A stretch of DNA of 24,930 bases from a virus. Of this stretch, positions 11,272 through 20,605 are shown one piece after another; position 1 is the stretch's first letter; the number at the start of each line of letters is the position of its first letter. Location: positions 1-24,930 of IMG/VR virus record IMGVR_UViG_3300009011_000049, one strand, 5' to 3'. Made by a program: the position numbers and the translations under genes. Below the pieces are notes generated by a model. That model did no database searches and had not been told where the DNA came from. It worked only from the letters and a program-made list of their open reading frames with translations.

Positions 11272-13800
11272 ATGCCAACAGTACCAACTGTAAACGGTCG
11301 TCAGGTAGAAAGCAGGGGATTCCAGTCCCCTGGACTTCAGGCATTCAACACGCCGCAAACTGCTGATGTGCTTGGTCAGGCCGCAGAGCAATACGCTGGC
11401 GCATTCGCGCAGGCCAAGCAGCGTGCTGATGTTGCACAGGCACAGGATGCATCCCTGCAACTCAGCCAGATTTCCAGCGATCTGCTGACGAACCCTGATA
11501 CCGGCCTGCTCAACATGCAGGGTAAAAATGCGCTCGGTAAGGGGCAGGAGTACACCCAGCAATTCGACTCGAAGGTTGAGCAGATTGCTATGACGCTGCC
11601 GGAAGGTTCCCGTGCCGGATTCATGCAGCAGGCTCAGCAGCAGCGCATCCAGTTCACCTCCCAGGCCGGTCGCCATGAGATCACCCAGCTCAACGCTTAC
11701 GAAGAGGGGCAGTTTCAGGCGACGCTGGCGAACAACGGGAAACTGGCTGCCTCAGCGTATGGCGATAATGCCAACTATGTGCTGTACAACCAGCAGACTT
11801 TCCAGCAGATCGACGACTACGGCGCCGCGCATGGCTGGAGCCCGGAACAGATTCAGGCGAAAAAGATTGAGTTCAAAGAGAAGGTTGCCGATGCTTCTTT
11901 GTCTCAGTGGTCAGCCAACAATGCTATCGACTTCATTCACAGCAATGGAGAGCTGAGCGACACGGCAACAGGCTCCCGTCGTGCGGTATCGGAAGGTGGC
12001 AGCGGTGATGGCGCCCGCGGCATCCGCAATAACAACCCTGGGAACCTCGAGTTCAGCAAAACCAATCCGTGGATTGGGCAAACCGGTGATGACGGCCGCT
12101 TTGCTAAATTCGAAACGCCTGAGCACGGCATCCGCGCGCTTGGCCGCAATCTGCTGTCTTACCAACGCCAGGGCATTGATACCGTCAGCGACATCATCAA
12201 CCGCTAGGCGCCTCCTTCAGACAATAACAACACCGATGCGTACATTAAAGCGGTATGCGCGCAACTTGGCGTGACGGCAGATCAGCAGCTTGATGCATCA
12301 AACCCTGACACGCTCAAAGCGCTGTGCGCCGCTATCATCCATCACGAGAACGGCAGCCAGCCCTATACTGACCAGCAACTTTCTACTGGCGTCAGTGCGG
12401 CAATTGGTCTGTCTCAGCTTCCGACCAGCACCAAGCGCTACACCGGGAACGCAGCATTCGACGCTGCATCTCCGGAGGCGCAGGCAACCTTCCTCCGCCA
12501 GGCCGACCAAATCCGCAAGTAGCAGCAGGCGGAGTATCGAACCACTATCGACAGCCAGGTCCGCGACGCAACAGCGGCCTACATGCGCGGAGTGGATTTC
12601 CCTAATGCGCCTTCGCAGACCGACTTCTTGGCGGCCTACGGTGTGCGTGAAGGTAACCTGCGGTACACCGAGTTCAAAAACACGCAGATAGCCGGGCAGT
12701 ACATCGGCTCATTCCGCAACATGCCGACGAGCAGCATCACGGCATACGTTGACCAGTTGCGACCTGGAACCGGAGAAACAGGCGAGGGCTATGCATCCCG
12801 CGCCGCATTGTTCGATCAGGTATCGGCGGCGGCTACGAAGGTTATCAGTCAGCGCCAGAACAACCCGTTCAATGCTGCCGTGGAGATCGGAGCGTATAAG
12901 CCGCTTTCCAGCAATAACCCGAATGACATCACGGCAGAGGTTGCCAACCGCTTCTCTTCTCAGGAGAGTTTGCGCGCGTTGGGTATCAACGCGCCAATCC
13001 TTTCCAGCGAAGAGGCGGCGGCCCTGTCTGAGCAGGTACGCGGCACCAAAGACGTAAACCAGACCATCAGCCTGTTGCAGAGCATGGGTGAAACGCTATC
13101 GGCACCCGCAATGCGCCAGGTCGCGTCTGCCATTGCGCCAAACAACGCTGCAACAGCCTATTCCGCGCTGCTGCTGGGGACGCCGGATAACCAGTACGAC
13201 AACAAAAAACCATCCATCGCATACAGTCAGTTCATTGGCTACAAGCCGACCATGAACAAGTACGACGTATCGAAGGTGATCCTGGCCGGTGACCAGTTGC
13301 TGAACCCGACGAAGGCAATGAAAGATGCTGGCATTACTCCGGTCCAGTTGCCGAGCGAAGATAAGCTTAAGCGCGCATTCGACGATCAGGTTGGTAACTC
13401 GTTCGCCAATAACCCACAGGCGCGCCAGCTGAGCTACAACCTTTTCAAAGCCGCTTATGCAGGGATCGCTTATCAGTCAGGCGATGCCACCATGACCCGC
13501 ACTGATGCAGCCAACTCAGATGTAGTGGAGAAGGCAGCGCAGTACGCCACAGGGGGAGTATACAAGGGATTCAATGGTGGAGATGTGGTAATGCCGTTCG
13601 GCATGGACAAATCCACCTTCAAGGACCGCTACACCGCATCTGCGCAGCAGGCTCTGAAAGATGCCGGGCTGAATGTCAACGCCGCATCAAACTTCACCCC
13701 GGTCAATATCGGCAATAACCAGTACCGCCTGGTAAGCGGCAGCGGGCGCTGGGCGACGGATCCGAAAACCAATGAAGCTATCGTCGTGAGGGTCGAATAA
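11272..13800 (+). pseudogene. gp15-like internal virion protein with embedded lytic domain, interrupted by two in-frame TAG codons
   Basis: One reading frame of 842 codons runs from ATG 11272 (strong AAGGAG) to TAA 13800. It is broken only by TAG at 12205-12207 (codon 312) and TAG at 12520-12522 (codon 417); no frameshift is needed. Residues 1-240 are a coiled, Gln-rich internal-virion region. Residues 240-350 resemble the virion lytic domain called structural protein P5-like (GIRNNNPGNLEF, then FETPEHGIRALGRNLLSYQR). The first TAG falls in IINR-stop-APPSDNN, where I recall the family having Trp (TGG). The second lies in RK-stop-QQAEY, possibly a former CAG. The remaining 425 codons form the long C-terminal domain. 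By position it equals T7 gp15, the periplasmic tube subunit. Either it is a broken gene, or it is read through by amber suppression. Confidence 0.82.
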
Positions 13801-15365
13801 TGTCTGATGTATTTTCTCTGGCTCCGGAAGGCCAGGCGTGGACCGACGATAAAACAGCAGCCAACCCTGCACGACCAGAAGACTATGAGCCGACATTCTT
13901 TCAGGGCTCAATCGCTGCGCCGGTGCGCGGCGTGGCTGAAGGCACGATCGGGCTCGCGCAATCTGCCGTCGGATTCAGTAAGCGCCTGATCAGCGATCCG
14001 GCATTCACCGCCGACGTTGCGCCGACGGTCAATATCTTCCGCGTGATGTTTCCCGATGCTGATAAAACGCTGAATGACACCTACGACACGATCGGCAAAC
14101 AGCTGCAGGAAGCACGCGGATACGTGAAGCCTGATGCAGGTAGCCAGGGCACTGCTGCTGAGGTGCTTTACGGTCTGGGCCAGTTTGTGCCGGCCATCGG
14201 TGCGACCATTGTCGGCGGCCCGACCGTTGGCGCCGCTACTGCATTCAGCTCTACGTATGAGCAGTCCTATCAGGATTTCAAGGGAAAGGGTGTTGACGAG
14301 TCGACGGCGCGTAATCTGGCAACGCAGCAGAGCCTTTTCAACGCGGCTGGCATGGCTTTACCTGCTGCCGTCGGTACAACACTGGCAACGCGCATTGCAT
14401 CTGGCGTCGCAATCAACACCGGGTTCGGCGGCCTTAACCGTTACTCCGTCGGCGAAACGCTGGAGGAAAAAGGTTACACCGAGATGGCTAAGCAGTACCG
14501 GGTATTCGACGGTCAGGCGATGCTGGTCGATGCGGTGCTTGGCGGCGCCTTTGGTGGTGCCCATCACCTTGCCGCGCGAAATGCTGACGTGCCGCCACCG
14601 CCAGATGCAGAAGCACCGATCCCGGCGGCAGAAGTGCAGAGTGTTCCTGACGCAACCGCAGAACCATCCACTTTAACAGAATCAGCACCAGTGACTGATG
14701 CACCTGGCGCACCGGCGCGATCTGATGTTCAGGCACCGGCATCAGAGCCTGTCGCGGCGCCAGACATCCCTGCTATTAAGCCGAGCGACATTGATGCAGC
14801 CCACACGCTGAATGAGGGGCTCTATTACGATCTGGAATCTGCTCCAGTTCTGCACGCCAGCAACGAGAGTATTAACAGCCATGTGGCAGCCATGGATGAA
14901 GCGTACCGGCAACTGAATGACGGTCAGCCCGTTAACGTCGGAATGATGGCGCGCGGTCTTGATGGTCCGGCGCGGCCCGGCATGCTGGAATCAGCAAACG
15001 AGCAGTACCATGCAATGCAGCAGGTTTTCGAAGAGAATGGTGTCAGGTATGAAACGCCGTCAGATCTGGCCGGGGAGCCACCGGCGCCGCGCGCCGAAAG
15101 CGCATTCACGGCAGCAGACGAAACTGGCGGGCAGGTCAGTGTAGATCCAGATACTGGCCAGGCGATTTCATCCAACAGTTACGACCTGATGGCGGCGCGT
15201 GATATGGCGACCACCAATCCGGATCTGACAATTACGCACCCAGACACCGGTCAGCCGGCGAAACTATCCGACGTTCTGGCTGAATTTGATGAACAAATCC
15301 AGACCGTACAGAACGAATCGAAAGTGTATTCCGTCGCCGCCGCGTGCTTCCTGAGGAACCCATAA
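13800..15365 (+). CDS. Internal virion / ejection protein, 521 aa (N-terminal part of gp16-like function)
   Basis: A 521-residue protein starting on the A of the preceding TAA (TAATG). The N-terminal 120 residues are polar. Residues 110-260 hold alternating Ala/Gly-rich hydrophobic stretches (GLGQFVPAIGATIVGGPTVGAATAF, AAGMALPAAVGTTLA, DAVLGGAFGGAHHLA) that look membrane-active, as expected for proteins injected into the inner membrane. From about residue 265 to 310 there is a Pro/Ala-rich linker, then a helical, charged C-terminus. The family is the large internal virion proteins of T7-like podoviruses. No lytic transglycosylase motif is visible here; the lytic domain is in the upstream gene instead. 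The stop overlaps the next start. Confidence 0.7.
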   Translation: MSDVFSLAPEGQAWTDDKTAANPARPEDYEPTFFQGSIAAPVRGVAEGTIGLAQSAVGFSKRLISDPAFTADVAPTVNIFRVMFPDADKTLNDTYDTIGKQLQEARGYVKPDAGSQGTAAEVLYGLGQFVPAIGATIVGGPTVGAATAFSSTYEQSYQDFKGKGVDESTARNLATQQSLFNAAGMALPAAVGTTLATRIASGVAINTGFGGLNRYSVGETLEEKGYTEMAKQYRVFDGQAMLVDAVLGGAFGGAHHLAARNADVPPPPDAEAPIPAAEVQSVPDATAEPSTLTESAPVTDAPGAPARSDVQAPASEPVAAPDIPAIKPSDIDAAHTLNEGLYYDLESAPVLHASNESINSHVAAMDEAYRQLNDGQPVNVGMMARGLDGPARPGMLESANEQYHAMQQVFEENGVRYETPSDLAGEPPAPRAESAFTAADETGGQVSVDPDTGQAISSNSYDLMAARDMATTNPDLTITHPDTGQPAKLSDVLAEFDEQIQTVQNESKVYSVAAACFLRNP

Positions 15366-18433: not shown

Positions 18434-18456
18434 AAAAAAGCCCGCAACGCGGGCTT
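18434..18456 (-). terminator. Intrinsic terminator of the toxin gene
   Basis: AAGCCCGC (18438-18445) and GCGGGCTT (18449-18456) form an 8-bp stem with an AAC loop. Leftward it is followed by TTTTTTGTTGG. The stem overlaps the toxin stop codon (18455-18457). On the plus strand the following bases are TATTCTT, so it may act weakly in both directions and end the virion operon. Confidence 0.8.
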
Positions 18457-19000
18457 ATTCTTCCCATTTCTCATCGAAAAGGTCTTCTTCCAGTGGCATT
18501 GGTTGAGTTTTTGTTTGTTCAAAAAAGGCGTAGCTAACTGCGATTGCAGCCTCTGTGAATTCACCTTTTTCAGTCTCGTTATGGGCATCAGCATTCACAA
18601 AAAACATGACAAGCGCATCACGATTGTGATTGACCGAATAGACTAAAAAGCTATCACTAGTGTGGGTATACCTAACCTTGACAGATGCAATGTTTTTCCA
18701 AGCATCCCACGAAGATTTCTTTCCAGAGTGATCTTTAGCGCTATCTTCTGGAACGTAATCTTTAAGGTCGGAATGAGTGTGCCTTACGTGCAGGTTGAGG
18801 ATCTCTTTTGGCCGCGCAAAAGCCGCATCTTTCCCCATATCCGGGTGGTAACCTGTTTTCCAAAACTGCTTAAATGCGTCAGCAATTTTTTTCAATTCAG
18901 GATCAGATGCACAAAGGGCCGAGAAATTCTGCGTATGCAGTACTCGACCCTTGTATGTAACAACTTGATTTTGATTATTCTGCGACGCAGACGAACTCAT
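18455..19000 (-). CDS. YafO-like type II toxin (putative mRNA interferase)
   Basis: The 181-residue product contains the run FKQFWKTGYHPDMGKDAAFARP followed by LNLHVRHTHSD and later FLVYSVNHNRDALVMFFVNADAH. This matches the YafO toxin pattern (G-x-x-P-D, G-[RK]-D-A, a H-[IV]-[HR]-x strand, then a self-contained hydrophobic strand). YafO cleaves mRNA on ribosomes (family knowledge). It is longer than E. coli YafO (about 132 aa) at both ends, with a Ser/Gln/Asn-rich N-terminus and an acidic tail EEDLFDEKWEE. I chose ATG 19000 because AAGGGG lies 4-5 bases upstream; the longer frame would begin inside the upstream gene. It overlaps the 59-aa gene by 26 bases. Confidence is moderate because no catalytic assignment was verified. 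Confidence 0.6.
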   Translation of the reverse strand: MSSSASQNNQNQVVTYKGRVLHTQNFSALCASDPELKKIADAFKQFWKTGYHPDMGKDAAFARPKEILNLHVRHTHSDLKDYVPEDSAKDHSGKKSSWDAWKNIASVKVRYTHTSDSFLVYSVNHNRDALVMFFVNADAHNETEKGEFTEAAIAVSYAFFEQTKTQPMPLEEDLFDEKWEE

Positions 19001-19154
19001 AGTTCCCCTTATCATTGCGAGAATCATGGAAAGCGCGAGACACACGCATAGCATGTTCTTTTGTCATTGTTACTTTTACGTACTCAACGCCTTCTCTGAC
19101 AGAACGTCTTGCGGCAGCCTGCGCTCTACGCACCTGCAATCTTTCGTTTCGCAT
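18975..19154 (-). CDS. 59-aa basic protein upstream of the YafO-like toxin (candidate antitoxin)
   Basis: The ORF starts with ATG at 19152-19154, preceded by AGGTGA with ideal spacing, and ends at TAA 18975. The product begins MRNERLQVRRAQAAARRSVR, is strongly basic at the N-terminus and mixed after residue 25. Its end overlaps the toxin start by 26 bases, an arrangement usual for toxin-antitoxin pairs with the antitoxin first. It does not look like YafN. The basic helix could bind DNA or RNA. Alternatively it may be an unrelated small phage protein. It is short enough to be missed by automatic callers. Confidence 0.6.
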   Translation of the reverse strand: MRNERLQVRRAQAAARRSVREGVEYVKVTMTKEHAMRVSRAFHDSRNDKGNYEFVCVAE

Positions 19155-19212
19155 GACATCACCTCATAATTTAGAAACTACCTTCAACAAGGGTAAATCA
19201 AAACTTTTTTGT

Positions 19213-19227
19213 TTACCCTTGGGGTAA
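19213..19227. promoter_or_regulatory. Operator-like palindrome TTACC-N5-GGTAA, site 2
   Basis: TTACC CTTGG GGTAA lies immediately downstream of the TAATAT -10 element of the toxin-unit promoter. A bound protein would block RNA polymerase. An extra half site (GGGTAAA) lies near 19189-19195. Confidence 0.7.
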
Positions 19228-19255
19228 TATTACATCACTAATACGTGATAGCCAA
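19227..19255 (-). promoter_or_regulatory. Leftward promoter of the toxin unit
   Basis: Read leftward, TTGGCT (19250-19255), 17 bases, then TAATAT (19227-19232, five of six matches to TATAAT). The transcription start would fall inside operator 2 (19213-19227), placing the operator at about +1. The spacer also holds ATCAC-N6-GTGAT, a second small inverted repeat. Confidence 0.6.
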
Positions 19256-19280
19256 TTATTTTATAGCCGCATTGCCCTTT

Positions 19281-19303
19281 AAACAAAGGCACATCCTTGT
19301 GCC
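19281..19303 (-). terminator. Intrinsic terminator of the antirepressor gene
   Basis: GGCACA (19288-19293) and TGTGCC (19298-19303) form a perfect 6-bp stem with a 4-base loop. Leftward it is followed by TTTGTTT. It lies 8 bases beyond the antirepressor stop and separates that gene from the toxin promoter. Confidence 0.7.
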
Positions 19304-19310
19304 AGCTACA

Positions 19311-20006
19311 TCAGAACTCAGCTGTGTTTTTGGTGATGTACTGCGCGTGGCTGCGGATGTCGTTCAGGCATTTGCTGACGCCGACGATGTAGCTCACCAT
19401 GGTTGTGAACTCCGCCGCCGCGCCGGAAACATCGTGCCCGTCTTCCTGCATGCGGTTGAGCAGGTTCATCAGCAGTGAGTGCTCAGCTAGGCCGAGAACG
19501 CCTTCAGGAGAATGGATGTGCTCGCGATAGCCTGGCTTAAGCGGAACATTGTATTCCTGCTTTTCTCCCGACTTCATCGCTTCCAGAATCGCTGGCATAA
19601 AACTGTCGACAACCTTCTTTGCTTTATCTGCTGGAGACAGCTCTTCTCGAACGTAGCGCCCGGTCTGGCGGATCTGTGGCAGCACTTCGCCAGTGACCCA
19701 TTTGCGGAAACGGTAGGGAATAGTGCCAGGCGTAACCGCGTCACGGCAGCGGAGGATCAGTGTGTAGAGACCGGACTCGTTGATGACGCTTACATTCTGT
19801 GCGCCTTTAACGGTGTAAGTTGAACTTACTCCCTTCTCGTCATCATCTAACGCCTTCAGTGACATGCGTGAGTTGGTGAGTCCAAGAGCTTTGCAAACGT
19901 CGGAAGCCGCAAACCACGGATTGCCGTCGATGTTGAACATACGGACAGGGGTAGCGGACTCGAATTTGAATACTGCGTCTGGGGTAGGTTTTTTTTGAGC
20001 TGTCAT
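19311..20006 (-). CDS. BRO-N domain phage antirepressor
   Basis: The 231-residue product has an N-terminal BRO-N domain (about residues 14-120): VRMFNIDGNPWFAASDVCKALG, then SGLYTLILRC and YRFRKWVTGEVLPQIRQTGRY, all hallmark segments. The C-terminal 90 residues form a second domain found in antirepressors of enterobacterial phages. Such proteins bind and inactivate phage repressors to trigger induction. I chose ATG 20006 because GGTGA lies 4-6 bases upstream; the upstream in-frame GTG/ATG candidates lack a site. A run of eight A codes for Gln-Lys-Lys at codons 4-6. A leader of about 270 bases with hairpins and Ash/Icd-like coding traces precedes it, as known for P1 icd/ant-type units. The C-terminal domain is duplicated as a separate gene at 20326. 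Confidence 0.85.
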   Translation of the reverse strand: MTAQKKPTPDAVFKFESATPVRMFNIDGNPWFAASDVCKALGLTNSRMSLKALDDDEKGVSSTYTVKGAQNVSVINESGLYTLILRCRDAVTPGTIPYRFRKWVTGEVLPQIRQTGRYVREELSPADKAKKVVDSFMPAILEAMKSGEKQEYNVPLKPGYREHIHSPEGVLGLAEHSLLMNLLNRMQEDGHDVSGAAAEFTTMVSYIVGVSKCLNDIRSHAQYITKNTAEF

Positions 20007-20261
20007 AGCGATCACCTTTGTAGTCAGGATAATCACCACTTCCGACGCCAATCGGGATGGTGGTGAACTGTGCAGGGTTGGCGTAACCGGCTACAAAGGA
20101 CCCGGCGCACCTTTCGGTGCCCCCACACAGCCCACCATAGAAACTGGTTTGCTATGTAGCACGCATAAAAAAACCGCTCGCGCGGCATATGCGCCTTTGT
20201 AGTTATCCGGGACGCCAATCCCGGCACTGGATTTTGCCAGTGCCTGATTACTATGGCACAA
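19843..20261 (-). pseudogene. Ash/Icd-like coding traces in the antirepressor leader, split over two frames
   Basis: Two overlapping frames in the leader give Ash-like peptides. Frame A (20264-20091) reads AGIGVPDNYKGAYAARAV..., then VSMVGCVGAPKGAPG, and stops at TAG. Frame B (20151-19843) reads ...CAGSFVAGYANPAQFTTIPI, then GVGSGDYPDYKGDRY. It overlaps the antirepressor start and ends at TGA 19843. The phrase SFVAGYANPAQ and the repeated IGV...YKG unit are typical of the Ash / host division inhibitor Icd-like family. The two halves join with a 1-base shift near a GGG run (20101-20103). In frame B an ATG-CGT-GCT-ACA is followed at once by TAG (20152-20154). Either the gene is frameshifted, or only one half is translated. 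No good ribosome binding site is visible. Confidence 0.4.
20223..20244 (-). other. Perfect 8-bp hairpin in the antirepressor leader
   Basis: GGCACTGG (20223-20230) and CCAGTGCC (20237-20244) pair perfectly around a 6-base loop, without a T-run in either direction. It lies in the untranslated leader between operator 3 and the Ash-like region, so it is more likely an RNA structure that controls translation or stability than a terminator. Confidence 0.5.
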
Positions 20262-20279
20262 GATTTATGCAATGTAAAT

Positions 20280-20294
20280 TTACCGTAAAGGTAA
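20280..20294. promoter_or_regulatory. Operator-like palindrome TTACC-N5-GGTAA, site 3
   Basis: TTACC GTAAA GGTAA lies upstream of the antirepressor leader, between the two antirepressor-related genes. A weak leftward -35/-10 (TTGTAA near 20317-20322 and TCATTA near 20292-20297, 19 bases apart) would again place the operator at the -10. Another candidate promoter, TTTACA-N17-CATAGT, starts just downstream. Confidence 0.65.
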
Positions 20295-20325
20295 TGATTG
20301 CATGGAATTTAGGTAATTACAAACC

Positions 20326-20586
20326 CTATCTGGTTTGTTTCTTCAGTTGCTCTGCGCAGTAATCGAGATGCATCTGCAGATCCTTCATTGACATCTGCGA
20401 GCTGGTGACGTAATTCACCAGGGCTGTCAGCTCTGCCATCGGGCCATCAACGTTAAATCCGTCCTCATTAAGTTGTCGCAGCAACGTCATCAGGTGAGAT
20501 TCTTCAACAAGGGAGCGGACGCCTCCCGGCGTGTGTATGCGTTCGGCAAATCCTTTTTCCAGCGGGTGATGATACTGACGTTGCAT
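20326..20586 (-). CDS. Free-standing antirepressor C-terminal domain protein, 86 aa
   Basis: The product starts MQRQYHHPLEKGFAERIHTP. Along about 76 residues it aligns without gaps to the C-terminal domain of the adjacent antirepressor: about 30 identities counted by hand, including PL..G..E.IH.P.GV, E.S.LM.LL, EDG..V.G and AE.T..V.Y. It has no BRO-N domain. I chose ATG 20586 because GGAG lies 8 bases upstream; a TTG at 20604 is in frame. It sits directly behind a LexA-type box and, further up, operator 4. It could modulate the full-length antirepressor through shared oligomerisation or target binding, or act alone on a second repressor. This is inference. It may be co-transcribed with the antirepressor downstream. 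Confidence 0.7.
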   Translation of the reverse strand: MQRQYHHPLEKGFAERIHTPGGVRSLVEESHLMTLLRQLNEDGFNVDGPMAELTALVNYVTSSQMSMKDLQMHLDYCAEQLKKQTR

Positions 20587-20605
20587 CTCATATTCTCCAT
20601 GCAAT

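Follow-up and report, generated by a model that had tools for sequence, protein, structure and literature searches.

Two TAG codons in gp15 of an epsilon15-like phage record are very probably a derived nonsense allele rather than a decoding feature

The Salmonella phage epsilon15 has been reported to eject internal virion proteins during infection, a statement that concerns the phage as a whole (PMC8954989). In its genome (AY150271), gp15 lies between gp14 and gp16 and is annotated as a putative lytic transglycosylase. The nearest annotated relatives of the gene considered here are epsilon15-like (Uetakevirus) phages and prophages. Two other kinds of system are relevant to a phage gene containing in-frame TAG codons, namely, TAG-recoded phages, which include some Crassvirales, and the classical amber mutants. 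The latter are conditional-lethal phage mutants whose amber codons each lie one transition away from Trp TGG or Gln CAG. The window, by which we mean the whole 24,930-base stretch of viral DNA that was analyzed, carries a gp15 gene interrupted by two TAGs. Our analysis indicates that these TAGs are very probably a double nonsense allele of gp15 that is derived and confined to one record, and not a feature of decoding.

The plus-strand gene at 11272-13800 translates to 842 residues followed by TAA, and its only in-frame stops are TAG at codons 312 and 417, as an earlier, sequence-only reading of the window had claimed. That reading had also seen no frameshift; indeed, most of ~85 homologues align with the gp15 frame along its entire length. 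The features on which the argument turns, some of them described with the help of a near-identical sister record introduced below, are as follows.

11272-13800, plus strand: gp15 gene of an epsilon15-like phage (probable internal virion or ejection protein, 842 codons) with two TAGs, assigned by homology and by phrog_992 on the intact sister protein.
12007-12402, plus strand: embedded putative peptidoglycan-lytic domain, approximately residues 246-377 of gp15, placed by profile matches to 9vvp_L and 7q47_A and by pairwise alignment.
12205-12207, plus strand: TAG at codon 312, in the RWAPP motif of the lytic domain; relatives and the sister read TGG (Trp).
12520-12522, plus strand: TAG at codon 417, downstream of the lytic domain; the sister reads CAG (Gln), and nearly all relatives encode Gln or Glu.
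13800-15365, plus strand: gp16 gene (phrog_1145), whose start codon overlaps the stop of gp15 as TAATG; a GAGG-like site shortly precedes it.

Several lines of evidence identify the gene. Over 100% of its length, its DNA identity is 85.4% to Enterobacter phage BUCT554 and 82.2% to epsilon15, and its identity to E. coli prophages reaches 88.6%. The homology is full-length and sits within the gp12 to gp17 gene order; an E. coli prophage has the identical order, with the gene following a T7 gp14-family virion core protein. The intact gp15 of the sister matches the PHROG family phrog_992 (head protein) over residues 1-842, and searches of Pfam and NCBIfam assigned no family to gp15. DNA identity, gene order, and phrog_992 thus agree on the gp15-like assignment made earlier, and these comparisons identify the gene as gp15 of a temperate podophage of the epsilon15-like (Uetakevirus) type. 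The gene order and the lytic domain suggest that its product is probably among the ejected internal virion proteins. A profile of 19 homologues, covering residues 246-377, matched PDB entries 9vvp_L (Gp29; 5.5e-44) and 7q47_A (an endolysin; 4.9e-27). The aligned lytic domains share an RWAPP motif whose Trp is residue 312, so the first TAG does fall inside the embedded lytic domain, as had been proposed. This domain has itself been exchanged in one relative from Superficieibacter electus (L088:5001-7106), which keeps the N-terminal part of the protein and carries a different domain where the lytic one usually lies, a domain swap.

The rest of the window has features of its own. An insert on the minus strand (18455-20604) lies between the gp17 module and the tailspike. 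Within it, the minus-strand gene at 18455-19054 (phrog_1651) is weakly YafO-toxin-like, below the Pfam cut-off, and the minus-strand gene at 19311-20051 encodes a BRO-N/Ant antirepressor. A third gene on the same strand, at 20326-20604 (phrog_450), belongs to a family shared with the C-terminal part of that antirepressor, which suggests a duplicated or split antirepressor C-terminal domain. Farther upstream, terL and the portal gene are separated by a minus-strand gene of the N4 gp49/Sf6 gene 66 family (1246-1623), and the corresponding interval of L001, a relative from E. coli, has an annotated pseudogenic tRNA-Gly.

To read the two codons among relatives, gp15 loci were gathered from IMG/VR, GTDB genomes, and annotated collections, and the codons aligned to 312 and 417 were recorded in 91 loci. 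Apart from the window copy and L088, in which another domain replaces the lytic one, every locus that covers codon 312 has TGG there. At codon 417, relatives encode Gln (CAG or CAA) or Glu (GAG or GAA), except L059 (TAA) and L088. A stop at codon 312 is therefore absent from every relative, and only L059 has one at the 417 position. The sequence-only reading had guessed at TGG and CAG as the ancestral codons and had suggested aligning homologues as a check; the alignment, with Trp at 312 and Gln or Glu at 417, supports the guess. It also disposes of the alternative that the homologues are naturally three separate proteins, since nearly all relatives encode one protein. Because the relatives and the sister carry sense codons, the TAGs of the window are derived, each by a single transition.

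Nonsense decay does not appear to be unheard of in gp15, judging from the gathered copies. Two of ~85 copies contain one nonsense codon each: codon 520 is TAG in L044, and the position of codon 417 is TAA in L059. L059 is an independent gp15 copy, 53% identical; its TAA, codon 414 in its own numbering, comes shortly after the lytic domain, and the copy most closely related to it, L064, reads CAG there. The TAG at codon 520 of L044 is a lone stop in an otherwise open frame, and a decayed prophage is likely there. The gp15 of L083 is broken in another way. We rejected the L059 stop as a sign that the 417 position is functional, as it is a single case and the window product would be truncated already at 312.

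The most informative comparison is with the sister record (L074; IMGVR_UViG_3300025735_000030), which is 41,177 bases long and contains the whole window. A first match between the two covered 11,215 bases and had two mismatches. Over all 24,930 positions, the window and its sister differ only at 12206, where the window has A for G, and at 12520, where it has T for C. These positions are the two TAGs; the remaining 24,928 positions are identical, and the sister gp15 is intact. Both TAGs are thus derived, and they are the sole differences between the records. Because an otherwise identical sister has an intact gene, the stops are very recent. Scanning IMG/VR for exact patterns brought up the sister or more distant relatives but never a second record with these TAGs, in scans from which the window's own record may have been withheld.

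How did two ambers come to be the only changes? One explanation, to which we give an even chance of being correct, is that the TAGs are absent from natural phage DNA and reflect library damage, an amplification or assembly error, or else deliberate alteration, whether of the DNA in the laboratory or of the sequence file. The sole near-identical public record carries sense codons, and both changes are C:G to T:A, a common class of damage and amplification error; ordinary sequencing or amplification errors of this class are a possible source. The window offers 13,373 possible C:G to T:A changes, comprising 4228 synonymous, 6516 missense, and 609 nonsense changes and 2020 outside the listed genes. 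Two random changes of this class would both create TAG with a probability of ~1.0e-3 and would both create TAG in one gene with a probability of ~9e-5, or 1.7e-4 for the same gene with any nonsense type permitted, figures that assume uniform mutation and overstate the oddity because the window was reported for its two stops. This small probability, which might favor an edit, therefore overstates the case for an artefact or edit in a window picked for its pattern, and a large scan can yield such a pattern once by chance. Moreover, random errors are as unlikely as random mutations to both be amber. Taken literally, however, a pair of ambers in a single gene with no other change resembles design more than decay: natural selection gains nothing from the second nonsense codon, yet a designer would include it as a guard against reversion. 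A natural allele and a deliberate alteration, at the bench or in the file, are therefore equally plausible. Dcm methylation hotspots were rejected as the cause, as neither site lies within CCWGG.

The other explanation that we take seriously, and hold tentatively as quite possible, is a real natural double-amber prophage allele that arose by two spontaneous transitions in an integrated, non-productive prophage. It draws support from the setting of the sister, in which a tyrosine integrase adjoins guaA at the contig end. Given this arrangement, the sister is, as its sequence reads, an integrated prophage whose insertion site is guaA. Across the full junction stretch, the identity of the guaA piece to E. 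coli reaches ~91-92%; to the enterobacterial genome G246 it is 98%, and the sister host is thus probably an enterobacterium other than E. coli. G246, one of the 392 genomes searched, gave no gp15 match itself. Since the sister is an integrated prophage, a dead virion gene could ride passively in such a lysogen without immediate cost. The single nonsense codons in two of the other ~85 gp15 copies, including a TAA in L059 where L064 has CAG, also favor a natural allele, and the locus shows what is expected of a nonsense-inactivated prophage gene, that is, a derived stop with close relatives intact. Against this, simple decay predicts missense, synonymous, and indel changes as well, and none is seen relative to the sister; there is no further substitution in 24,930 bases. 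L059 and L044 have one stop each and no comparably close sister was found for them, so that they offer no precedent for a clean double hit.

Whether the TAGs are a real allele or a record-level change, ordinary loss of function is the favored interpretation of the lesion. Under standard decoding, translation would stop after residue 311, within the lytic domain, leaving an N-terminal part that would lack a complete lytic domain and the C-terminal half. The gp15 gene itself is preceded by AAGGAG, and no ribosome-binding site is visible upstream of the in-frame GTG at 12271 or ATG at 12583, which makes an internal restart at either codon unlikely. With its own ribosome-binding site, gp16 would probably still be made, at a normal or somewhat lower level. 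Virions assembled under these conditions would have no functional gp15, and normal infection would not be expected of them. The predicted gp16 product is 521 aa long in the window and in BUCT554, and ~634 aa long in epsilon15 and the E. coli prophages.

It is very unlikely that a host suppressor tRNA reads TAG at both sites, or that TAG has been reassigned, such that full gp15 is still made. This idea has some appeal because the reading frame past both stops is unbroken and fully conserved, and because Trp and Gln are classical amber-suppressible positions. However, the preserved downstream frame requires no readthrough, since the sister is identical elsewhere and intact and the stops are very recent. 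The rest of the window also argues against it. Among the 21 window genes that were checked, gp15 alone has an internal stop, and TAG terminates terL (1162), a 91-aa gene (18402), and the tailspike (22752), where readthrough would add 38, 44, and 22 residues, respectively. The use of TAG by these three genes had been the earlier argument against genome-wide reassignment, and it stands. Neither the window nor its 41,177-base sister carries a tRNA gene, and hence neither has a phage suppressor tRNA with a CUA anticodon. Reassignment of TAG is rejected on stop usage, the lack of tRNAs, and the sister record. Conserved or programmed readthrough is likewise rejected because the stop is not conserved among relatives, none of which has one at 312. 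The sequence-only reading therefore holds up in the gene identity, the two TAGs, their ancestral codons, its case against reassignment, and the loss of function that is now favored; its branch of unusual decoding does not survive the sense codons of the sister, the lack of a phage tRNA, and the absence of homologue stops at 312. Finally, a real allele kept in a naturally amber-suppressing enterobacterial host, in which gp15 would be reduced and suppressor-dependent and infectivity would hinge on the host suppressor tRNA, is hardly credible.

A derived double nonsense allele confined to one record, our preferred reading, can now be set beside the known systems. A literature search for epsilon15 nonsense mutants and for double ambers in internal proteins returned nothing on gp15. 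Compared with epsilon15 gp15, the window gene matches in order, frame, and full length, with 92% protein identity outside the stops, whereas the epsilon15 gene is intact, reading TGG at 312 and CAG at 417. The likeness to TAG-recoded phages, such as some Crassvirales, lies in the in-frame TAG in a structural gene. In contrast to those phages, the window has only two such TAGs, in one gene of the 21, together with three TAG terminators, no phage suppressor tRNA, and a sister that uses the standard code. An apparent recoding signal in one phage gene thus vanishes once a near-identical sister is found. A real allele would amount to an ordinary defective prophage gene, its main use being that of a null allele, available ready-made, for an ejection protein. 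Should it not be real, the case cautions that nonsense codons seen in one metagenomic phage record call for support from reads. Overall, the window resembles the classical amber mutants in carrying ambers in a virion gene, and it differs from them in that the origin of its record may be metagenomic or informatic.
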